NCBI RefSeq assembly: GCF_001050275.1
Contig: NZ_BBYA01000006.1
Span: forward strand, 1-35,812
From: Leptolinea tardivitalis
GTDB lineage: Bacteria > Chloroflexota > Anaerolineae > Anaerolineales > Anaerolineaceae
Direction of reading: 5' to 3'
DNA: 35,812 bases
The position numbers and the translations under genes are program-made. Within the stretch, counting starts at the first letter, position 1. Every line of letters starts with the position of its first letter. The notes beneath the pieces were generated by a model that saw only the letters and a list, made by a program, of their open reading frames with translations, was not told where the DNA came from and searched no databases. This document shows positions 14,951-24,865 of the stretch, in pieces.

Positions 14951-14982
14951 AGCGGTCTGCCTGAGCAGACCGCTTTTGTTTT
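14951..14982 (+). terminator. Intrinsic terminator after DUF4870 gene
   Basis: AGCGGTCTGC at 14951-14960 pairs perfectly with GCAGACCGCT at 14965-14974 around a 4-base loop, followed by TTTGTTTT. On the minus strand the tract after the stem is less T-rich, so it mainly serves the plus-strand gene. Confidence 0.88.
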
Positions 14983-16030
14983 AAATCTTTGAGAGTTTTG
15001 ATCCATCGGGCGTATCAAGAATACGCCACCCCAGATTCTCTACTTCCAGACGCAACCGGTCAGCAACATCAAAATGACCCGCCTTACGGGCAATCTCGCG
15101 GCGTTCCACCAGTTCAGATACATCATCTGAAGGAGATGGATTTTCGGTATATTCGTAGTTTTCCAGCCTCTTCCATACATCAGGGCGAATATCATCCTGC
15201 CAGTTGGTTGGAATTTTGAACAATCCAAGAATATCAAGAGATTCAGACGTACCGCTGGGAAGTTCTTTTTCTATTCCCTTATTTTTGATATGCACAACCC
15301 CTTTGCCAAATACTTTTATGGTATTTGAGGAAATATCTATCCATAGGGAGGTATGCTCATCAATGCCAATAACAGTCCCATGACACAAATTCAGCTCAAG
15401 CAACTCAGAAAACCGTTTCTCGCCCATAAAACAATGGCTGGTATCCAATTCCATGCCACCTTCCGCATTGTTCCAATGCGGCACAATGATCACATCCAAA
15501 CCAAAACGATGTAAAAAATTCAATCCGGGTTGCCAGTGTAAATCCATTCCAGCTTTATATATTTCATATACAGGGAGAGCCTGACAGCCAATCGCGATAG
15601 TGGCCGCACTGGCTAAAACCAGAGCTGCTCCGGTTCTATGTCTTGCCTGAATAATGTCATACGCCAGACTACCGGAAAGTTGTTTTGTTGCATACGTAGG
15701 GCTTCCCGGTCCCATGAAAATCATATTTGCCGAATAAAGCGGCTCCAATATCGTCTCATTATCCGGGCTGAATACGGTACCTTTGCGACGTGCGGGAATA
15801 ATATCAATGTATGGGTGGTAATTTTGAAGCCGGTTTTGAAGAAATTCGCCCACCCTGCCGGCTACTTTCGGTGAATTCAATTCAAAACCGGCGGGTGTTT
15901 CCAGTATAGCGATTCGCAGCGGCTTCGGATAACATTTTGCCACTTCTTCAAATGCTGCGCCGCTGCTGGGAGATGTTTCACCGGATCCCATTAAAACAAT
16001 TGGGCCGGGGGAAAAGGTTTTTGAATGCAT
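14981..16030 (-). CDS. S51/cyanophycinase-like protein with CysRS-type C-terminal tail
   Basis: The 349-residue protein has an N-terminal class I glutamine-amidotransferase-like fold of the S51 peptidase/cyanophycinase group: LMGSGETSP near the start, GPGSPTYA at about 107-114, and a putative nucleophile Ser141 in LASAATIAIG. Its last 44 residues (306-349, ELVERREIARKAG...DTPDGSKL) closely resemble the extreme C-terminus of cysteinyl-tRNA synthetase, where an R-x-x-AR-K segment, an AD-x-x-R helix and LxDTPxG recur. The substrate is unknown. S51 peptidases cut after Asp or hydrolyse cyanophycin, but no cyanophycin synthetase is nearby. A -10 box ends 6 bases before ATG 16030 with no ribosome site. 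Confidence 0.75.
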   Translation of the reverse strand: MHSKTFSPGPIVLMGSGETSPSSGAAFEEVAKCYPKPLRIAILETPAGFELNSPKVAGRVGEFLQNRLQNYHPYIDIIPARRKGTVFSPDNETILEPLYSANMIFMGPGSPTYATKQLSGSLAYDIIQARHRTGAALVLASAATIAIGCQALPVYEIYKAGMDLHWQPGLNFLHRFGLDVIIVPHWNNAEGGMELDTSHCFMGEKRFSELLELNLCHGTVIGIDEHTSLWIDISSNTIKVFGKGVVHIKNKGIEKELPSGTSESLDILGLFKIPTNWQDDIRPDVWKRLENYEYTENPSPSDDVSELVERREIARKAGHFDVADRLRLEVENLGWRILDTPDGSKLSKI

Positions 16031-16152: not shown

Positions 16153-16416
16153 ATGGATGAAATAATAAAACTATACGGAACTTCATGGTGCGGTGGAACC
16201 CGCCGTGCAAGGCGGATTTTTGATGACAATAAAATCGCCTATCAGTGGATTGATATTGATCTGGATAAAGAAGCCAGGTCAATAGTCGAACAGATAAATC
16301 ACGGTAATCGCAGTGTACCGACCATAGTATTCCCTGATGGTTCCATCCTCGTAGAACCATCAGATGGCCAATTGGCGGAAAAACTTGGTGTCACTCCCCC
16401 TAGATCATTCTTCTAA
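16153..16416 (+). CDS. Glutaredoxin/mycoredoxin-like protein, monothiol CGGT
   Basis: This 87-residue thioredoxin-fold protein resembles mycoredoxins: KLYGTSWCGGTRRARRIF at the active site, YQWIDIDLDKEA on strand 2, and GNRSVPTIVFPDGSILVEPS with the cis-proline. The active site reads C13-G-G-T16, so the second cysteine of the usual CxxC is replaced by Thr, giving a monothiol enzyme or one that no longer does dithiol chemistry. It probably reduces mixed disulfides of a low-molecular-weight thiol. Its stop overlaps the stop of the converging membrane-protein gene by 4 bases. Confidence 0.82.
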   Translation: MDEIIKLYGTSWCGGTRRARRIFDDNKIAYQWIDIDLDKEARSIVEQINHGNRSVPTIVFPDGSILVEPSDGQLAEKLGVTPPRSFF

Positions 16417-16649
16417 ATCATTTTTCTGTCCGACCGGCCTGATAAGAGAGACAGGATAAAAACAACCAAACCACCAACAAATAAAGCAGAAGCGATCACC
16501 CAGATGGCTTTATATTTTTTTCTGGTTTCGACAGAGATAACAGGTTCATATGTCAACCGGGATTTCAATTCTGCCACAAAATCAGGATTTGCCTGTCGTG
16601 GTTTTAATAGATTGCCCAGTTTGCTTTCCAATAATTCCATCTCATTCAT
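16413..16649 (-). CDS. Small single-pass membrane protein, possible anti-sigma factor
   Basis: The 78-residue product has an acidic/amphipathic N-terminus (MNEMELLESKLGNLLKPR), then NPDFVAELKSRL, one strong membrane helix at about 47-69 and a short basic tail, so the N-terminus is expected in the cytoplasm. Size, topology and place downstream of an ECF-type sigma gene fit a minimal anti-sigma factor, though no zinc-binding HxxxCxxC motif is present and the family is not recognised. It follows degV by 35 bases on the same strand and probably belongs to the subtilase-sigma-degV operon. Confidence 0.6.
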   Translation of the reverse strand: MNEMELLESKLGNLLKPRQANPDFVAELKSRLTYEPVISVETRKKYKAIWVIASALFVGGLVVFILSLLSGRSDRKMI

Positions 16650-16684
16650 TGTTAATCATTCCCAGAATAAAAATACAATCCGCC

Positions 16685-17530
16685 TTAAATTTCATCCGGA
16701 TAGGCCACAATTCCTATGGCACCCGGGCCTAAATTTGCCGCAACAGGAATGGAAAGATCTGTGATAATGACCTCCCTGCACACAAACCGCTGTTTGACCA
16801 GATGGGATAGACTTCTGGCTTCATCGGGATCATTGGCATGAACTACAGCAAGGTGAACGGGTTTCTGCCCAATTCTCCTCTCAACAGCAAAAAGTACCTC
16901 ATCGAGCGAGGAATTTCGGGTGCGAACTTTATCCACCATCTCCAATAAGCCATCTTTAAGATAAACAATCGGTTTTATCTTCATAAAAGATCCTAACAGG
17001 CTTTGAACAGCTGTCACTCTGCCATTCAGCCGGGCAAATTCGAGTGTATCCATAGTGAAGACAACTGTCAGATTCCGCTTTATCGCTTCCAATCGGTTTA
17101 TGATTGCCTGAATGTTATAACCGGCATTTTCCATAATTCTGGCTTCCCGGCACATAAAACCCAGAGCAATAGAACCAGCACCTGAGTCAAATGGAATTAC
17201 ATTGAACTCATTTTCCACGTCCCTTGCTGCCAGTTTGATAACTGAATACGTTCCAGAAAGTTTGCTGGATACATGCAAAGACAAAATCTTTTCACCTTTT
17301 CTGGCAATGGATCGATAAAAATCTATCACCTGTCCCGGTGACGGAAGTGATGTTTTGGGTACGATTTTTGTTTGTTTCACGAGATCATAAAAATTGATCG
17401 GAGAAATATCCAAACCAGAAGTATATATATTCTCATCAAAACGGACCATCAGCGGCAGGGTATGAATATTGTATTTTTCAGCCCAGCCCGGGGGCATATC
17501 CACAGAACCATCGGTGACGATATGAATCAT
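16685..17530 (-). CDS. DegV family fatty-acid-binding protein
   Basis: This is a 281-residue DegV protein: VTDGSVDMP at the start, KTSLPSPGQVIDFYRS, LSLHVSSKLSGTYSV with the conserved serine and glycine that hold the fatty-acid carboxylate, and DTLEFARLNGRV. DegV/FakB proteins bind a fatty acid and present it to FakA kinase for phospholipid synthesis. No fakA is in the window. The start ATG overlaps the sigma-factor stop in an ATGA, with GGAG upstream inside the sigma gene, which indicates translational coupling. Coupling of a lipid-binding protein to a sigma factor is unusual and may link envelope lipid state to transcription (inference). Confidence 0.9.
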   Translation of the reverse strand: MIHIVTDGSVDMPPGWAEKYNIHTLPLMVRFDENIYTSGLDISPINFYDLVKQTKIVPKTSLPSPGQVIDFYRSIARKGEKILSLHVSSKLSGTYSVIKLAARDVENEFNVIPFDSGAGSIALGFMCREARIMENAGYNIQAIINRLEAIKRNLTVVFTMDTLEFARLNGRVTAVQSLLGSFMKIKPIVYLKDGLLEMVDKVRTRNSSLDEVLFAVERRIGQKPVHLAVVHANDPDEARSLSHLVKQRFVCREVIITDLSIPVAANLGPGAIGIVAYPDEI

Positions 17531-18084
17531 TCTTGCTCCAGGATTCCATTTACTTCGGTTCGTAGTTCCAACAATGTTCGATGATAAAGGCTCTTTATTG
17601 CTCCCTCACTTTTCGACATGATCAGGGCAATTTCAGCATTGGAAAGTTGTTGAACAAATTTGAGAACAATCAATTGCTGCCGCTCAGGTGATAACCGTCT
17701 GATGACGGAGATCAACTTTTCCACCTCCTGGTCGTAAACTACCTGTTTTTCCGGATGCTCCCCGGTCATTACCAGATTCGGCTGGTCATCCAGAGCCACT
17801 TCCTGGCGGCGGCTGTTATCGCGATGCCAATTCGCCACAAGGTTATGGGCAATCCGATAAAGCCAGGCAGAAAATGGCACACCTTTATCACTGTAGTGTG
17901 TTATCCGCCCCATAGCTCGTTGAAAAACCCTGGCCGTCAGGTCTTCAGCATCTGTTGTATTACCTGTTCGGTAATATATATAGCTGTATATCCGGTTTAC
18001 ATATCTCTCGTATAAATGACTAAACGCCTCCGCATCACCCTGGATTGCTTGCTGTAAAACTTCTTCTTCGTTCAGGTCAGCCAT
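17527..18084 (-). CDS. ECF-type sigma-70 factor
   Basis: The 185-residue protein has only regions 2 and 4. Region 2 (about 20-90) contains AFSHLYERYVNRIYSYIYYRT, DAEDLTARVFQRAM and FSAWLYRIAHNLVANWHR. Region 4 (about 125-175) contains RRLSPERQQLIVLKFVQQLSNAEIALIM and KSEGAIKSLYHRTLLELR. It directs RNA polymerase to a set of envelope- or stress-type promoters. It lies 64 bases after the membrane subtilase gene and overlaps degV by 4 bases. The ribosome site before ATG 18084 is weak. Confidence 0.93.
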   Translation of the reverse strand: MADLNEEEVLQQAIQGDAEAFSHLYERYVNRIYSYIYYRTGNTTDAEDLTARVFQRAMGRITHYSDKGVPFSAWLYRIAHNLVANWHRDNSRRQEVALDDQPNLVMTGEHPEKQVVYDQEVEKLISVIRRLSPERQQLIVLKFVQQLSNAEIALIMSKSEGAIKSLYHRTLLELRTEVNGILEQE

Positions 18085-18148
18085 GAAAAGGTCCTATCAG
18101 TGCTATATCTAAAATAACCCTGTGAGGCCTGCGAAGATACTTATTTTC

Positions 18149-20575
18149 TCACCGGTCTTCCAACGCTTTTTCAACTGCCTTGTATGCATTTACAATACCA
18201 TATCCCGCTACCGAATTAGGTGCATCCATCCTGGTGACGCATTCGGGTACAACTCCATTATACGGATCTGCCGTCTCGTTGAGTATTTCCCGGGTTTTTT
18301 CAATATCCCCGATTAATTTGGGGTTGGCTGACCAAAGCAAAGCTACCACACCTGCCACATGCGGCCCGGCCATCGATGTCCCGCTGGCTGTTTTATAAGT
18401 TGATCCAGGGTAGGATGATATAACATCCACACCGGGTGCTGCAATATCCGGCTTAATCCGTCCGCTTCCATCAACTTCTACCGGACCAAGGCTGCTAAAA
18501 CTGGCGATGTTCCCATTACGGTCTACCGCTCCCACTGAGTAAACATCTTCATAGATTGCCAGAGGATCCTGTACGGTGGAACATCCACCCATTCCAGAAT
18601 TCCCTGCGGACGCCACCACAAATATCCCGGCAGTCTTAAGCGCCGAAACAGCCGGAAGATACGTTTTTGGATCGCAGCCTTCTACAACCGGGCACCCCCA
18701 GGAATTGTTAAGCACATTTGCACCTTTTTCGGGTTTTCCATCTTTGAATGGATCACCATTCTGCGGGAATGGCGCCAGCATAAATTGCATACAATCCAGA
18801 TAATGTGCCGGATTCCCCAGGTTGCGTGCCAGATTGACACAACCAATCCACTCTGCTTTGGGTGCCACACCAACAGTCTCTCCAACAATAGAACCCAGCG
18901 TGTGTGTTCCATGTCCTCCAATATCTACGGGTTTTTTGGAACCAAACCAGGGGTCAAACCAATTGAAGTTATCCGTTCCATCCAAATTTCCACGGTAATT
19001 GGCAGATAACTGAGAATGCTGCCCATCTGCCCCGCTGTCTGATTGGCCTATGATGATCCCCTCGCCGTAAACCTTAAAATCCTTGTGAACACGGTCAGCG
19101 CCAATCATCTGGATGTTCCAGGGCAAGGAAGGCTCTTGTGAAATTTCACCTTTAGCAACAGGAGCCGGGCTCTGTAACGGCCGTAAAACAGGGCTGTCTA
19201 AAATACGATCGACATCACTTCGGGCAGCCAATTCTTGCCTCAGAATTGGATTTCCATCGAGTTCAATTGCATTAACAAGGTAATACGGCTGATAAGCTAT
19301 CCCCTTACTGTCCAACCAGGCACGGATATCTTTTTGAGATTCAACGGCATTTTGTACAAGAGCAGAATAGACAGCTTTACGACGAGCGAGGGCATCGGGA
19401 ATATTTTTTTCTGTTGTCAAATCTGCCTGGCTTTTCATTATTACAAAAATCTTCTCACCATAAAAACCAGGGTGTCCAAATGTTCCATAAAGCACAAGTA
19501 CAAGGGTCCAGGCTGCCACGAAGAATACAGCTCCAGGTATGGGAGATATCTCTTTTCTTCCGGCAAATTTTCGGCTAATCAATAGAAAGATAAAAAGCAG
19601 AAGCGCCAGACCGAAACCAATCGCGGTAGCTTCAACCGCATACCCCAGTAATTCCCCCGCCTCACCAGAAACCACGGCAGAAAGCTCATCAGGATCGATC
19701 ATCATCATCGGCCAGGCAAATCCCAGCAATACTACTGTACCGGCTGCCAAACGTCCAGACATGGATAGGTACCCATCCATGTCAATGGCCAGAGATGCCG
19801 CGGCAAATCCGAGCGGCAACAGAGAGAACAAAAGAATCCATCCGTTATTATTTTGATCTATGGCTGTGGTCAAAATAATAAGCCCAAGGGTGATAATCCA
19901 CCCGGCACCCCCGATGCTTTGTTTAATAGATGTCTGGTCTGATCCAATACTGGTAATTTCAGGCAGCAGAACAGATATCGTAATAATTCCCAACCCGGTG
20001 GAAAGAAGCAGGGCGAGAATAGAATCCAATGGAGAACCCTGAGCTCCCCATAGAACCCATGGAATCCCGACTATAGCGCCAGCACCGGCGGATATTGCCA
20101 GCAGGTTCAACCCATTGGTTTTTTCATCCGGTTTGGTTTTTTGATGTTTATGGAAAAATACCAACCACAGAACTAAAAAGACACAAACGCCTGCCAGTTG
20201 GATGGAGGCAGTCAATTGCCAATCGGTGATTGATGAAAGTCTGGATGGAGTTAAGAGGATAGCCAGAATGGATATGTTCCTCAAGGCTTGAAGCCTTTTT
20301 TGTGCCACCGGCTCCCGGACTACTTTCTCAGCTATAAGGAACGGGATAAATAAAAGAAGTCCATAGGTCAATTCGATGATCCAACGAATATTAGGAACTT
20401 TGATCGACCCCTCAAAAATGATCTGGAAAATTGTAAAATTGGTTAATTGAACAATAAAGGTAAGAAAAAGTACCCAGATTGAAAGGACGATTATGACTGC
20501 CAGACCTGAACAGCCTTTCGATTCGGTAGTTGGAGTAATTCCAATGGATTGCTCGTTTTTCAGCGATTCTTCCAT
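18149..20575 (-). CDS. Polytopic membrane subtilase (peptidase S8 fusion)
   Basis: The 808-residue protein joins a large membrane domain to a subtilisin. After a polar N-terminus come about 10-11 hydrophobic segments (roughly 22-370), then a region like an I9 propeptide (about 385-470), then the S8 domain. The catalytic residues are Asp in SDSGADGQHS near 511, His in GGHGTHTLGS near 556, the oxyanion Asn in SAGNSGMGG near 657 and Ser in SGTSMAGPHVAG near 731. The protease is expected outside the membrane. Most bacterial subtilases have a signal peptide only, so a multi-pass N-terminal half is unusual. GAGG precedes ATG 20575. It is first in a run with the sigma factor, DegV and a small membrane protein, suggesting a surface sensor or output protease of that regulon. 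Confidence 0.9.
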   Translation of the reverse strand: MEESLKNEQSIGITPTTESKGCSGLAVIIVLSIWVLFLTFIVQLTNFTIFQIIFEGSIKVPNIRWIIELTYGLLLFIPFLIAEKVVREPVAQKRLQALRNISILAILLTPSRLSSITDWQLTASIQLAGVCVFLVLWLVFFHKHQKTKPDEKTNGLNLLAISAGAGAIVGIPWVLWGAQGSPLDSILALLLSTGLGIITISVLLPEITSIGSDQTSIKQSIGGAGWIITLGLIILTTAIDQNNNGWILLFSLLPLGFAAASLAIDMDGYLSMSGRLAAGTVVLLGFAWPMMMIDPDELSAVVSGEAGELLGYAVEATAIGFGLALLLFIFLLISRKFAGRKEISPIPGAVFFVAAWTLVLVLYGTFGHPGFYGEKIFVIMKSQADLTTEKNIPDALARRKAVYSALVQNAVESQKDIRAWLDSKGIAYQPYYLVNAIELDGNPILRQELAARSDVDRILDSPVLRPLQSPAPVAKGEISQEPSLPWNIQMIGADRVHKDFKVYGEGIIIGQSDSGADGQHSQLSANYRGNLDGTDNFNWFDPWFGSKKPVDIGGHGTHTLGSIVGETVGVAPKAEWIGCVNLARNLGNPAHYLDCMQFMLAPFPQNGDPFKDGKPEKGANVLNNSWGCPVVEGCDPKTYLPAVSALKTAGIFVVASAGNSGMGGCSTVQDPLAIYEDVYSVGAVDRNGNIASFSSLGPVEVDGSGRIKPDIAAPGVDVISSYPGSTYKTASGTSMAGPHVAGVVALLWSANPKLIGDIEKTREILNETADPYNGVVPECVTRMDAPNSVAGYGIVNAYKAVEKALEDR

Positions 20576-21660: not shown

Positions 21661-21727
21661 TTAAATGCCGAAACGATTATTTAGATCAGATGTACAAATA
21701 AAAGTAAGTAGAAACAAAGGAGAAACC

Positions 21728-24700
21728 ATGAGTGATTTTCTTTTTCGCGGGAAACTGGCAGAGATTGATCCTGATGTACAAAAATTAATTAGTTTTGAAT
21801 CAGAACGCCAAATCCGCAAACTCATTCTCATCCCGAGTGAAAGCACCGCCCCTCTGGCAGTTCGTGAAGCCCTGTCATCTTCATTTCAGAATATTTACGC
21901 CGAAGGTTATCCCGATGACGAAACCCGTTGGATGACAGAAGAAGAAATCTTGAATTATGAAAACCGATTAGCCAATTACAGACGTTATGCAGATCCTCGG
22001 TATTACAAAGGTGTGGAATATGCCGATGTCATCGAATCCCTGACCCGTCGGCGTTGTGCTGAGGCTTTTGCTAATGAAAAAGTCCCGGCTAGCAGTTTGT
22101 ATGCTAATGTACAGGCATTGTCTGGAGCTCCGGCAAATAATGCGGTCTATTCTGCTTTGCTCAATCCGGGCGACACCATACTGGGGATGAACCTGTTACA
22201 TGGAGGCCATCTATCTCATGGATCATCTGTCAATCGGTCAGGCAAGCTTTATAAAGTAGTCCATTACAATGTTGATCCCCAGACCGAAAAGATCGATTAT
22301 GAAGCCGTTGCCGCTCTTGCATTAGAACATAAACCAAAAATCATTATTGCCGGATACAGCTCATATCCATGGGTGCCAGATTATGCCGAATTCCGCCGTA
22401 TCGCCGATAGTGTGGGCGCCTATCTTCTGGCAGATATTTCGCATATTGCCGGCCTCACGGCAGCCGGTGTTATTCCATCTCCTGTTGGCTATGCGCACGT
22501 TATTACCTTTACCACTCATAAGACTTTGTGCGGACCACGCGGTGCCTGCATCCTCACGTCTGACCTGTCCCTTGCCCGCAAGATTGATAAGGCGGTTTTC
22601 CCCGGTGAACAGGGCGGCCCTCATATGCACACCATCGCAGCCATGGCATTGACATTCAAACTGGCCCAATCACCTGAGTTTAAAAATCTCCAGGCTCAAA
22701 TCCTTAAAAATTGCGCAGCCCTTACAGCACGGCTTCAGGAACGCGGTATCCGGATTCCTTTCAACGGAACGAATACTCATATGGCTAATCTGGACTGCAA
22801 ATCCATCGTTGGCCCCGATGGCACCACTCTTTCCGGTGATATGGCCGCCCGCATCCTCGATATCGCCGGTCTGGTGTGCAACCGTAACACCATCCCGGGT
22901 GATAAAACGGCCAACAATTCTTCAGGCGTCCGGTTTGGAACTCCCTGGACAACCCAGCGTGGGTTAAAAGAAGCCGATATGGTGCAAATTGCAGATATCA
23001 TGGCCGATATTCTCAAAGCTACCATCCCCTACACCGTGGAATCACGCCAGGGATTGCAGACCCGAGCCAAAGTTGATTTTGATGTTCTGGAAAATGCCAA
23101 AATCCGGGTTCGTGAAATTGCTGCTCGTGCAGGCGCCGATATGACAGTTGGGACATCAGGATATCCCCATTTCTTCTACCTTGATGATCCTGCACCGGCC
23201 AAAGAAGGCTGGTCAGCATTGGATCTGATCGGAGAAAAAGTCCTGACATTTGCCCATTATGTATTTACTTCTGACCTTGATTCAATTAAGTCTGGCCAGT
23301 CGATTCCCTGCCAATTTAAAGCCAATAAGAAACCCATCGAAGGGGTGCTCACATTTGTGGCAGCAAATCATCTCTTGCTAAGTATTCCTTCTGCCGATGC
23401 TCCACTGGCTGCCGCCTGGCTGCGAGGTTTATCTGATGGATATATTGCGTTCGATGAAGATGCAGCCCGCAGGTTTGCCGGTCCTATCGTTGTAAAATAT
23501 TCTGATAAACAACCAGTCAAATCAGCTGCCGGAGAAGCCATCTGGCCATCTAAACCATATGCACCCGGTCTCATTGTGAAACCACAACCGGCACTTCCTG
23601 AATTCGTCTGGATTGAACCGGAAGAAGCTCCAATAAAAAAGACCGCGCTGAATGAAACACACAGGAAAATGGGAGCCAAGATGGTTCCCTTTGCCGGTTG
23701 GGATATGCCTGTGTGGTACAGCGGCGTAATGGAGGAACATCTGGCCACCCGTCAGGCTGCAGGTCTGTTTGACGTTTCCCACATGGGTGTATATCAGGCT
23801 GAAGGACCAGACGCTCCCCTGTTCCTGGATTGTGTTTGCGGAAACGATATCAGCGCCCTGGCCGTCGGGGAATCTTGTTACACCCACTTCCTTGACCCCT
23901 ATGCGAATGTTATTGATGATACCCTGGTGTACCATCGTGCTGAAGATAAATATCTTGTTGTGGTCAATGCTTCAAATGATGACAAAGATTGGGCCTGGCT
24001 GAATGCCGTCCGGGAAGGAAAAGTAGCTATCGATTCCAAACGCCCGTGGGTGAAAGTCATTGGACGCAATGTAACCCTGCGAAATTTGCGTGATCCCAAA
24101 GAAGGAAAGGACATGCGCGTGGATATTGCCCTCCAGGGTCCAAAATCGCGCGATATCCTTCTGATGCTGGGCACCGATAAACCAACAGAAAAGAAGATCA
24201 AAGCCTTAAAACGTACAGAGCTCTGTGAGGCTGTTGTCGGTGGATTTGATCTCGTTGTTTCCCGTACCGGTTACACAGGCGAAAAAATGGCGTTTGAACT
24301 CTTTGTCCATCCTGATAAATCGGTTGACCTGTGGAACAAATTGCTGGAGGCAGGCCAGTTGATGGGCATCAAACCCTGCGGACTCGGAGCCCGCGATTCC
24401 CTGCGTACTGAAGCAGGACTGCCTTTATATGGACATGAAATGGGTGGAGAACGGAATCTTTCTGTAAGTGAAGGCGGTTTTGGTTCATACGTCAAACTCT
24501 ACAAACCCTGGTTTATCGGTCGAGATGAATTTGCCCTGAAAGAAAAGAGCCGCAAAGGTGTGGTCGCCCGGTTCCGCTTCCTCGAAAAAGGCATTCGCAT
24601 GGCACATAACGGGGATCCTGTTGTCGATAAAAAAGGACGTGTCATTGGTCTGGTAACCAGTTGTGCTGTAGATGCAGAAGGATTCTTTACCGGCCAGGCA

Positions 24701-24865
24701 TTTGTGGAGTTGAAATCTGCTGTTGAAGGCACTCCCATTTTTGTTTATCAGGGTGCCCACAGTCTTGGATCACAGAATATCGCTGAAATCAAGCCGGGAG
24801 ATAAAATCCCGCTGCCGTCATCTGCCATTATTGTCAGCCGGTTCCCAAAACTGACTGCCTCTTAA
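21728..24865 (+). CDS. Fusion of serine hydroxymethyltransferase and GcvT aminomethyltransferase
   Basis: The 1045-residue protein has three parts. Residues 1-470 are a serine hydroxymethyltransferase: LILIPSEST, YAEGYP, MNLLHGGHLSHGS, and THKTLCGPRGA with the PLP lysine K265. It carries an extra segment at 63-90 before RYYKGVEY. Residues 471-637 form a linker domain I do not recognise. Residues 639-1040 are GcvT: MVPFAGWDMPVWYSG, GLFDVSHMG, ALQGPKSRDIL, SRTGYTGEKMAFELF and GLGARDSLRTEAGLPLYGHEM, with about 25 extra residues before ALQGP. GlyA interconverts serine and glycine; GcvT passes the aminomethyl carbon of glycine to THF. Fusion could channel methylene-THF between them. AAAGGAG at 21717-21723 fixes ATG 21728; the frame is open from 21665. 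No gcvH or gcvP is here. Confidence 0.93.
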   Translation: MSDFLFRGKLAEIDPDVQKLISFESERQIRKLILIPSESTAPLAVREALSSSFQNIYAEGYPDDETRWMTEEEILNYENRLANYRRYADPRYYKGVEYADVIESLTRRRCAEAFANEKVPASSLYANVQALSGAPANNAVYSALLNPGDTILGMNLLHGGHLSHGSSVNRSGKLYKVVHYNVDPQTEKIDYEAVAALALEHKPKIIIAGYSSYPWVPDYAEFRRIADSVGAYLLADISHIAGLTAAGVIPSPVGYAHVITFTTHKTLCGPRGACILTSDLSLARKIDKAVFPGEQGGPHMHTIAAMALTFKLAQSPEFKNLQAQILKNCAALTARLQERGIRIPFNGTNTHMANLDCKSIVGPDGTTLSGDMAARILDIAGLVCNRNTIPGDKTANNSSGVRFGTPWTTQRGLKEADMVQIADIMADILKATIPYTVESRQGLQTRAKVDFDVLENAKIRVREIAARAGADMTVGTSGYPHFFYLDDPAPAKEGWSALDLIGEKVLTFAHYVFTSDLDSIKSGQSIPCQFKANKKPIEGVLTFVAANHLLLSIPSADAPLAAAWLRGLSDGYIAFDEDAARRFAGPIVVKYSDKQPVKSAAGEAIWPSKPYAPGLIVKPQPALPEFVWIEPEEAPIKKTALNETHRKMGAKMVPFAGWDMPVWYSGVMEEHLATRQAAGLFDVSHMGVYQAEGPDAPLFLDCVCGNDISALAVGESCYTHFLDPYANVIDDTLVYHRAEDKYLVVVNASNDDKDWAWLNAVREGKVAIDSKRPWVKVIGRNVTLRNLRDPKEGKDMRVDIALQGPKSRDILLMLGTDKPTEKKIKALKRTELCEAVVGGFDLVVSRTGYTGEKMAFELFVHPDKSVDLWNKLLEAGQLMGIKPCGLGARDSLRTEAGLPLYGHEMGGERNLSVSEGGFGSYVKLYKPWFIGRDEFALKEKSRKGVVARFRFLEKGIRMAHNGDPVVDKKGRVIGLVTSCAVDAEGFFTGQAFVELKSAVEGTPIFVYQGAHSLGSQNIAEIKPGDKIPLPSSAIIVSRFPKLTAS

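Follow-up and report, generated by a model that had tools for sequence, protein, structure and literature searches.

Three described systems lie closest to the locus analyzed here: the σ factor BldN of Streptomyces and its partner RsbN, an ASDIII anti-σ factor that binds σ4 and σ2 and is encoded downstream of the σ factor as a single-pass membrane protein; the fatty-acid-binding FakB/DegV proteins that serve the fatty acid kinase in Firmicutes; and the RseA/RsiW-type RIP systems, in which a membrane-held anti-σ factor is co-encoded with its σ factor. The BldN site reads CGTAAC-N16-CGTTGA (available text of PMC2375139), and promoters of ECF σ factors have been described by an AAC/CGT rule (available text of PMC8103513). 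In FakB1, Arg173 is catalytic and Arg205 binds FakA (available text of PMC8892158). In the literature searched, which left most subscription papers outside, nothing joined "ECF sigma factor" and "DegV." The combination of Anaerolineae, ECF and σ factor was found there only in a gut metagenome study, and DegV or fatty acid kinase stood beside "sigma factor" in other settings, such as SigB in Bacillus cereus (PMC9912610).

Results

A BldN-Like σ Factor Is Encoded with a Small Membrane Protein across Anaerolineae

We analyzed a 35,812-nucleotide stretch of Leptolinea tardivitalis DNA (hereafter, the window), which contains the following features:

18149..20575, minus strand: membrane subtilase, 808 aa, with 11 predicted transmembrane (TM) helices, an I9-like unit at residues 375-461 and an S8 domain at 504-774
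18114..18140, minus strand: ECF-type promoter-like motif GTATCT-N14-GGGTTAT, score 15.3, 29 nt before the σ start codon
17527..18084, minus strand: BldN-like ECF σ factor (σ2 + σ4), 185 aa
16685..17530, minus strand: DegV/FakB-like protein, 281 aa, its start overlapping the σ stop by 4 bases
16413..16649, minus strand: 78-aa single-pass protein, a putative minimal anti-σ factor, with an N-terminal domain followed by TM 51-69

A sequence-only reading of the window had described four minus-strand genes with gaps of 64, -4 and 34 bases; the strand and the first two gaps agree with the ORF coordinates, but the third gap is 35 bases.

The Pfam matches of the σ protein, Sigma70_r2 at residues 24-93 (E 2.9e-17) and r4_2 at 123-173 (E 2.5e-11), comprise σ2 and σ4 only and bear out its initial designation as an ECF σ factor. 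Its best Protein Data Bank match is 6dxo_A (E 2.5e-30), which we take to be BldN with RsbN. Among NCBIfam models it scores best against that of the BldN family, TIGR02952; this score, 174 bits, falls under the curated cut-off of 206.45. An ortholog (E<=1e-45) is present in 212 of the 249 genomes of the class Anaerolineae, in a survey that scored at most 13 candidates per genome, and each genome has a single match except G299, which has two.

The neighboring genes keep the same order across 101 genomes of the family Anaerolineaceae, a recurrence beyond chance. Gene content was compared at 85 family, 40 distant-family and 80 named loci, sets that overlap. DegV lies beside σ at 37, 22 and 61 of these, respectively; 48 of the 85 family loci have no DegV within 500 bp of σ, a few of them being contig ends. 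The small protein follows σ or DegV at 79/85 family loci, the other six being contig ends (79/79 testable loci), at 33/40 distant-family loci, where some matches are weak, and at 75/80 named loci, the other five having less than 1 kb downstream. Judged by gene order, the conserved unit is σ-[DegV]-small protein, with DegV optional, and outside the family the genes flanking σ-DegV mostly differ. This arrangement resembles that of bldN and rsbN in Streptomyces, but here a DegV gene often stands between the σ factor and the putative anti-σ factor.

The Small Protein Is a Candidate Anti-σ Factor

The 78-aa protein contains an N-terminal domain with the pattern LExxL..LxPxxPxPxFVxxLxxRL and one TM segment by hydropathy, in agreement with its earlier description as single pass. 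It has no Pfam domain match, and a profile of the small proteins found nothing above chance in Pfam, NCBIfam or the PDB. Homology to RsbN was rejected at the level of sequence profiles, since the profile, built from 70 small proteins, recovered none of the 6dxo chains at E<=10; in this respect, the protein is unlike Streptomyces RsbN. When searched against a small database, the ORFs of 10 chosen loci, the profile matched four long proteins at their N-termini (E 1.2e-9 to 2.6e-8), each of them encoded directly behind another ECF σ gene, and also a long protein of this kind in the window's own genome (E 4.5e-5). Some weak matches to the small protein, L189 and L190, turned out to lie at loci without σ linkage.

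The proposed σ/anti-σ pairing thus gains support from the 79 testable family loci and from the profile matches after other ECF σ genes. On this comparative evidence, the small membrane protein probably holds σ back, and we infer that the two proteins bind one another. An AlphaFold2 model of the fused pair had a pLDDT of 85.4 and a pTM of 0.40, and no contact map was returned. The 78 residues include no His and no Cys, hence the zinc-binding HxxxCxxC motif (ZAS branch of ASDI) is absent, a difference from RseA/RsiW-type systems; the protein may be a divergent zinc-free ASDI. For Chloroflexi, a figure of 72% is given for ASDI-associated ECFs (available text of PMC7406223), and nothing in the literature searched paired DUF5667 with an anti-σ factor.

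A Promoter-Like Motif Precedes Both the σ Gene and an Unlinked DegV Gene

A strong ECF-type motif, TGaAAC-N17-GTTA, is found mostly 57-90 bp before the σ gene and so sits between the subtilase and σ. It exceeds the 99% shuffle level at 60/85 family, 31/40 distant-family and 78/80 named loci; in a control, 3% of 758 other genes exceeded the same motif score. The motif has the AAC-N17-GTT layout of the BldN site and carries GTTA rather than the CGT of the AAC/CGT type.

The motif matrix was built from σ loci only, and the upstream regions of an unlinked DegV paralog, DegV2, lie outside these training loci. Among the best 30 of 57 DegV2 matches, 28 passed the 95% level and 25 the 99% level. DegV2 presence tracks the σ motif (Fisher p 4.6e-9 by genome and 4e-4 by genus). 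A strict form of the motif occurred at 12 places in 12 whole genomes (5 σ operons, 4 DegV2 and 3 others) versus 7 for a reversed control pattern; these genomes were picked for strong σ motifs, and several also entered the DegV2 upstream test. A looser form gave 24 places versus 10 for its reversed control. The motif is weak or absent before σ in some genera (for example, 0/7 genomes in g15), the fmt control region was raised (6/60 over 8.9), and only 48% of 97 σ genes passed 8.9 when longest-ORF starts replaced the homology start. The σ factor presumably reads this motif, and its predicted targets would then be DegV genes, unlike the case of BldN/RsbN.

GNAT acyltransferase upstream regions were weakly enriched, with 11/30 over the 95% null and 7/30 over 99%. 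Of the three strict-pattern matches that lie elsewhere, two (L405 and L408) lack a convincing downstream gene, and the third, L413, precedes an ORF that may encode a CBS-domain protein. The looser pattern also matched at a YegS-like diacylglycerol kinase, an RRM protein and a ferredoxin-domain protein.

σ-Linked DegV Proteins Form One Clade with an Often Altered Carboxylate Site

The window DegV protein matches Pfam DegV with an E of 5.2e-72, confirming its earlier identification and placing it by sequence in the DegV family, which includes FakB. Its R171 and R203 align with Arg173 and Arg205 of FakB1, positions that are retained in nearly all DegV rows. The Thr62-Ser95-His270 carboxylate network of FakB is incomplete, with T60 and S88 present but N266. 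Such loss, in which these proteins differ from FakB, is frequent among σ-downstream copies: the His270 position is Asn in 18/35 family and 53/59 named rows with a letter there (overlapping sets), and at the Ser95 position Thr, Ala or Gly is common. All 30 of 30 DegV2 rows retain both His and Ser. In total, 110 of the 111 σ-downstream DegV rows group in one clade. The window's own genome also contains frames with a Dak2 domain, a domain of FakA-type kinases, and the DegV proteins here presumably bind fatty acids. The earlier idea of DegV as a partner in a lipid theme is favored by the linkage, the motif at the paralog and the single clade.

The Subtilase Is a Lineage-Specific Neighbor

The subtilase contains a Peptidase_S8 domain (E 2.5e-41, residues 504-774) with its Asp, His and Ser: D513, H555 and S734, which we take from knowledge of the S8 family to be the catalytic triad, are invariant in 8/8 aligned subtilases. 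An AlphaFold2 model from 8 sequences, with a mean pLDDT of only 55.7, shows 11 long N-terminal helices, consistent with the 10-11 passes first predicted. The modeled beta-alpha-beta-beta-alpha-beta unit at 375-461 (10-residue pLDDT means 64-92) would suit the I9-like propeptide of that prediction, but the I9 label found no family match.

Thirty-nine of 41 long family subtilases lie directly upstream of σ. However, 46/85 family loci have no subtilase before σ, and at the 40 distant-family loci no subtilase of the window's kind was labeled within five genes of σ. The anticipated conservation of gene order therefore held, beyond the family, for σ-[DegV]-small protein but not for the subtilase as a fixed member. 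The promoter-like motif separates subtilase from σ at 36/39 family subtilase loci, which further argues against a single four-gene circuit. Nor was the motif generally found, as had been envisaged, upstream of the subtilase: among 38 5' regions of 260 bp, 5 passed 5.8 and 2 passed 8.9, and within 150 bp 5% passed 5.8 and none 8.9, so the subtilase was rejected as the head of a σ-driven operon. Of the two regions over 8.9, one is inside the subtilase gene and the other is at a gene start that is probably miscalled. Judged by gene order and motif position, the subtilase is a lineage-specific neighbor outside the conserved, promoter-bounded unit, and any role in the switch is hypothetical.

Discussion

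We put at roughly 60% the probability that the locus encodes an autoregulated BldN-like ECF σ factor with a minimal membrane anti-σ factor, controlling FakB-like fatty-acid-binding proteins and hence membrane lipids. The N-terminal domain of the small protein would retain σ at the membrane, to which a single C-terminal helix anchors the protein. Once freed, σ would transcribe its own operon (σ, DegV and anti-σ) from TGaAAC-N17-GTTA, as well as the unlinked, canonical DegV2 gene and possibly further such genes, and the pool of FakB-type proteins carrying fatty acids for the kinase FakA would rise. Fatty acids may be the signal, and the σ-embedded DegV, with its drifted carboxylate-binding residues, could be either another carrier or a gauge of fatty-acid state. 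A more specific version makes this DegV the receptor: fatty-acid-loaded or empty, it would dock at the membrane-held σ/anti-σ pair and switch it, the altered carboxylate site marking a change from carrier to sensor. We hold this version only tentatively, at a low but appreciable probability.

Other explanations fit the data less well. The sequence-only reading had favored regulated proteolysis, in which the membrane subtilase senses the envelope, cuts the small protein and frees σ. Its adjacency to σ and conserved catalytic residues agree with this, as do the 11 helices of the low-confidence model, which, given an N-terminus on the inner side, would put the protease on the outer side. Unlike RseA or RsiW, however, the small protein has no extracytoplasmic sensor domain; by hydropathy it stops ∼9 residues past its TM segment, leaving almost nothing outside for a protease to cut. 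The motif moreover stands between the two genes, and σ and the small protein persist where the subtilase is missing, so that release by proteolysis seems decidedly improbable.

Fatty-acid genes are often under repressor control, and the partial symmetry of the motif (AACC...GGTT) makes a repressor site possible; the motif might thus be the operator of a fatty-acid-responsive repressor common to the σ and DegV genes. Yet its boxes and spacing equal those of the BldN promoter (PMC2375139, available text), it fits the AAC/CGT rule for ECF σ factors (PMC8103513, available text), and its position relative to the start also speaks for a promoter, making an operator unlikely. That the cluster is mere inherited local gene order, with no common function, accords with the mostly syntenic glyA-to-fmt block within the family, but σ-DegV-small protein recurs in distant families in mostly different neighborhoods and the motif also ties in an unlinked DegV gene; we give this explanation very little credence.

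As to how bacteria of the class Anaerolineae monitor their membrane fatty acids, the apparent start-signal motif before a second DegV-type gene points to a possible, testable circuit of membrane-lipid control: a widespread, mostly single-copy regulator for which a promoter, two target operons and an anti-σ factor are proposed, each of which can be tested. If the receptor version is true, a cytoplasmic fatty-acid-binding protein would directly gate an ECF σ factor across a large part of the class. If the autoregulated σ/anti-σ reading is right, ECF signaling would be linked to FakB-type carriers.

The sigma factor and the small protein recur together

The sequence-only reading described a module of four minus-strand genes, and all four open reading frames were borne out:

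18149-20575, minus strand, subtilase (SUB)
17527-18084, minus strand, ECF sigma factor (SIG)
16685-17530, minus strand, DegV protein (DEGV)
16413-16649, minus strand, small single-pass membrane protein of 78 residues (SMALL)

The proposed gaps of 64 and -4 bases held, and the third is 35 bases rather than 34. Pfam assigned an S8 subtilase, an ECF sigma factor and a DegV protein; searches with Pfam and further family models gave no family match for the 78-residue protein. Each of the four proteins served as a query against 101 Anaerolineaceae genomes, and the coordinates of the matches were then joined. With a cut-off of our own choosing for sigma orthologs (at least 170 bits; the next-best match scored 127 bits), 85 loci were found in 84 genomes.

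Table. Layouts at the family loci in single-sequence searches
SIG-SMALL: 18
SUB-SIG-SMALL: 16
SUB-SIG-DEGV-SMALL: 15
SIG-DEGV-SMALL: 13
SIG: 10
SIG-DEGV: 5
SUB-SIG-DEGV: 4
SUB-SIG: 4

Once ORFs and frames were read, the small protein was present in 79 of the 85 loci, and the contigs of the remaining 6 stop short. Because the glyA-to-fmt block is mostly syntenic across the family, gene order inside it is little proof by itself. A 1066-residue ORF (21665-24865, plus strand) reads from its translation as a fusion of serine hydroxymethyltransferase and glycine-cleavage T protein, and 72 of the 85 loci hold a gene of its cluster. The 349-residue protein at 14981-16030 (minus strand) weakly matches S51 peptidases and ends in a stretch resembling the CysS anticodon-binding domain; both matches fall below Pfam cut-offs.

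Scoring up to 13 candidates per genome, we found the sigma factor at E ≤ 1e-45 in 212 of 249 Anaerolineae genomes, with a single match in all but one. Gene order across the class was conserved in part: the sigma factor with the small protein, often with DegV, recurs, but at the 40 distant-family loci examined the subtilase did not recur beside sigma. Downstream of sigma, the small-protein profile matched in 33 of these 40 loci, although some of the matches were weak, with E-values as high as 0.01, and some of the misses reflect contig ends. A same-strand DegV gene lay within 500 bp of sigma in 22 (13 downstream, 5 upstream, 4 both). The genes flanking these loci are mostly unlike those of the family; a few are common, such as glutaredoxin in genomes G127 and G230. 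Among the best 80 of 584 loci from named genomes, some identical to family loci, the small protein was found in 75, an intervening DegV in 61 and the subtilase in 9; the five without the small protein have <1 kb downstream.

The family has 41 long subtilases, some of them truncated where a contig stops, and 39 lie directly upstream of sigma. Class genomes also have the long subtilase, away from sigma: at the 40 distant loci none was labelled among the five genes to either side of sigma, and a comparison by eye of seven genomes (G127, G230, G322, G189, G161, G279 and G171) put it on another contig or megabases off. The subtilase is not part of the core of the sigma system; it may modulate that system in the one family.

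The small protein resembles an anti-sigma domain

An alignment of 70 small proteins, out of 76 read by the filter, has near-invariant positions E8, L11, P20, F24, L28 and L32; after these come a transmembrane helix and then a short tail that is often basic. Among the ORFs of 10 loci (6 picked for weak small-protein matches, 4 for sigma paralogs), the profile matched in 5, covering the first 70-90 residues of long proteins (456-823 residues) whose genes directly follow other sigma genes. The E-values were 1.2e-9, 3.9e-9, 7.8e-9 and 2.6e-8; a further match, in the window's own genome, reached 4.5e-5. Two sigma-neighbor proteins carry sub-threshold DUF4179 matches; two others carry DUF5667 matches, likewise sub-threshold, and the profile did not match these two. 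From these sequence matches, the small protein is read as a putative anti-sigma domain without its sensor. A search with its profile gave no match to RsbN, the ASDIII anti-sigma factor of Streptomyces, so ASDIII membership is not claimed. Many class I associated ECFs are noted for Chloroflexi in a passage of PMC7406223.

A promoter-like motif precedes sigma and a second DegV gene

When dyads were counted in 150 nonredundant sequences from upstream of the operons, AACT-N16-GTTA ranked first, with 33 observed against 0.1 expected. A weight matrix for the ECF-type motif TGaAAC-N17-GTTA, built from 60 instances, exceeded the 99% shuffle level (score 8.9) within 150 bp upstream of sigma at 60/85 family, 31/40 class and 78/80 named loci, training and test sigma loci overlapping. 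The motif lies mostly 57-90 bp before the sigma start; at subtilase loci it falls between subtilase and sigma (36/39 and 9/9 above the 95% level). In the window it reads:

18140-18114, minus strand, motif with ATC in place of AAC

A score of 8.9 was passed by 3% of 758 other genes, 0/38 subtilases and 0/37 operon DegVs; the fmt control was raised (6/60), which is unexplained, and the sigma rate fell to 48% of 97 genes with longest-ORF starts. The motif shares an AAC-N17-GTT layout with the site of BldN, a Streptomyces ECF sigma factor, given in a portion of PMC2375139 as CGTAAC-N16-CGTTGA.

A looser pattern occurred at 24 places in four Leptolinea genomes, versus 10 for the reversed control. 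One of the 24 precedes DegV2, a canonical DegV paralog unlinked to sigma. In the window's own genome the DegV2 motif scored 16.2, 53 nt before the start; 8 of the 9 DegV places there had loci to examine, and at the six besides DegV2 and the sigma-linked gene no site preceded an ORF. DegV2 was found at E ≤ 1e-90 in 56 of 101 family genomes (57 matches). Upstream of the best 30 of these matches, which had no part in building the matrix, 28 exceeded the 95% null and 25 the 99% null. A strict pattern was then scanned in 12 genomes, which had been selected for their strong sigma motifs once the DegV2 upstream test was done. It hit 12 places, spread over 10 of the genomes: 5 at sigma operons, 4 at DegV2 and 3 elsewhere. 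The reversed control hit 7; thus the raw number is unremarkable, and where the places fall is striking. Most genomes with DegV2 also have the sigma motif: 49 had both, 21 neither, 11 the motif only and 3 DegV2 only, phylogeny being handled by genus tally only.

Looser motifs also lie 25-28 nt before a GNAT-like 375-residue protein in two Leptolinea genomes (L325 in G011, L335 in G045), with weak enrichment among its orthologs (11/30 above the 95% null); 104 nt upstream of a YegS-like diacylglycerol kinase in the window's own genome (locus L336, G000:C10:523916); and 101-104 nt upstream of an RRM RNA-binding protein in two Leptolinea genomes (L333, L334).

Sigma-linked DegVs often differ from FakB1 at the binding site

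In a tree made by a quick method, with some rows identical between sets, 110 of the 111 sigma-downstream DegV rows grouped, together with one tandem copy, in a single clade (support 97), separate from DegV2 and from upstream copies. For FakB1, a fatty-acid-binding protein of Firmicutes, sections of PMC8892158 and PMC9136124 describe a carboxylate network of Thr62, Ser95, Ser171 and His270, with Arg173 required for catalysis and Arg205 for the kinase FakA. The sigma-linked clade keeps both arginines, but His270 is often Asn, and Ser95 often Thr, Ala or Gly, whereas DegV2 retains His and Ser in 30/30. Nine of 40 distant-family loci (L198, L199, L203, L208, L212, L216, L221, L223 and L233) have a further DegV gene no more than 500 bp upstream of sigma, and four of the nine also have another downstream; these upstream copies keep His270 in 9/9 and Ser95 in 7/9. 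The window's own genome holds Dak2-domain frames, one of 575 residues, and a kinase partner for DegV is therefore plausible.

A proposed lipid-linked sigma circuit

We propose that the ECF sigma factor would be autoregulated, that the minimal anti-sigma protein would hold it at the membrane, and that its output would be fatty-acid-binding proteins. Because the putative anti-sigma has no outside domain, a membrane or cytoplasmic signal appears likelier than an outside one, and we infer that DegV is the obvious candidate for what would open the lock between sigma and anti-sigma.
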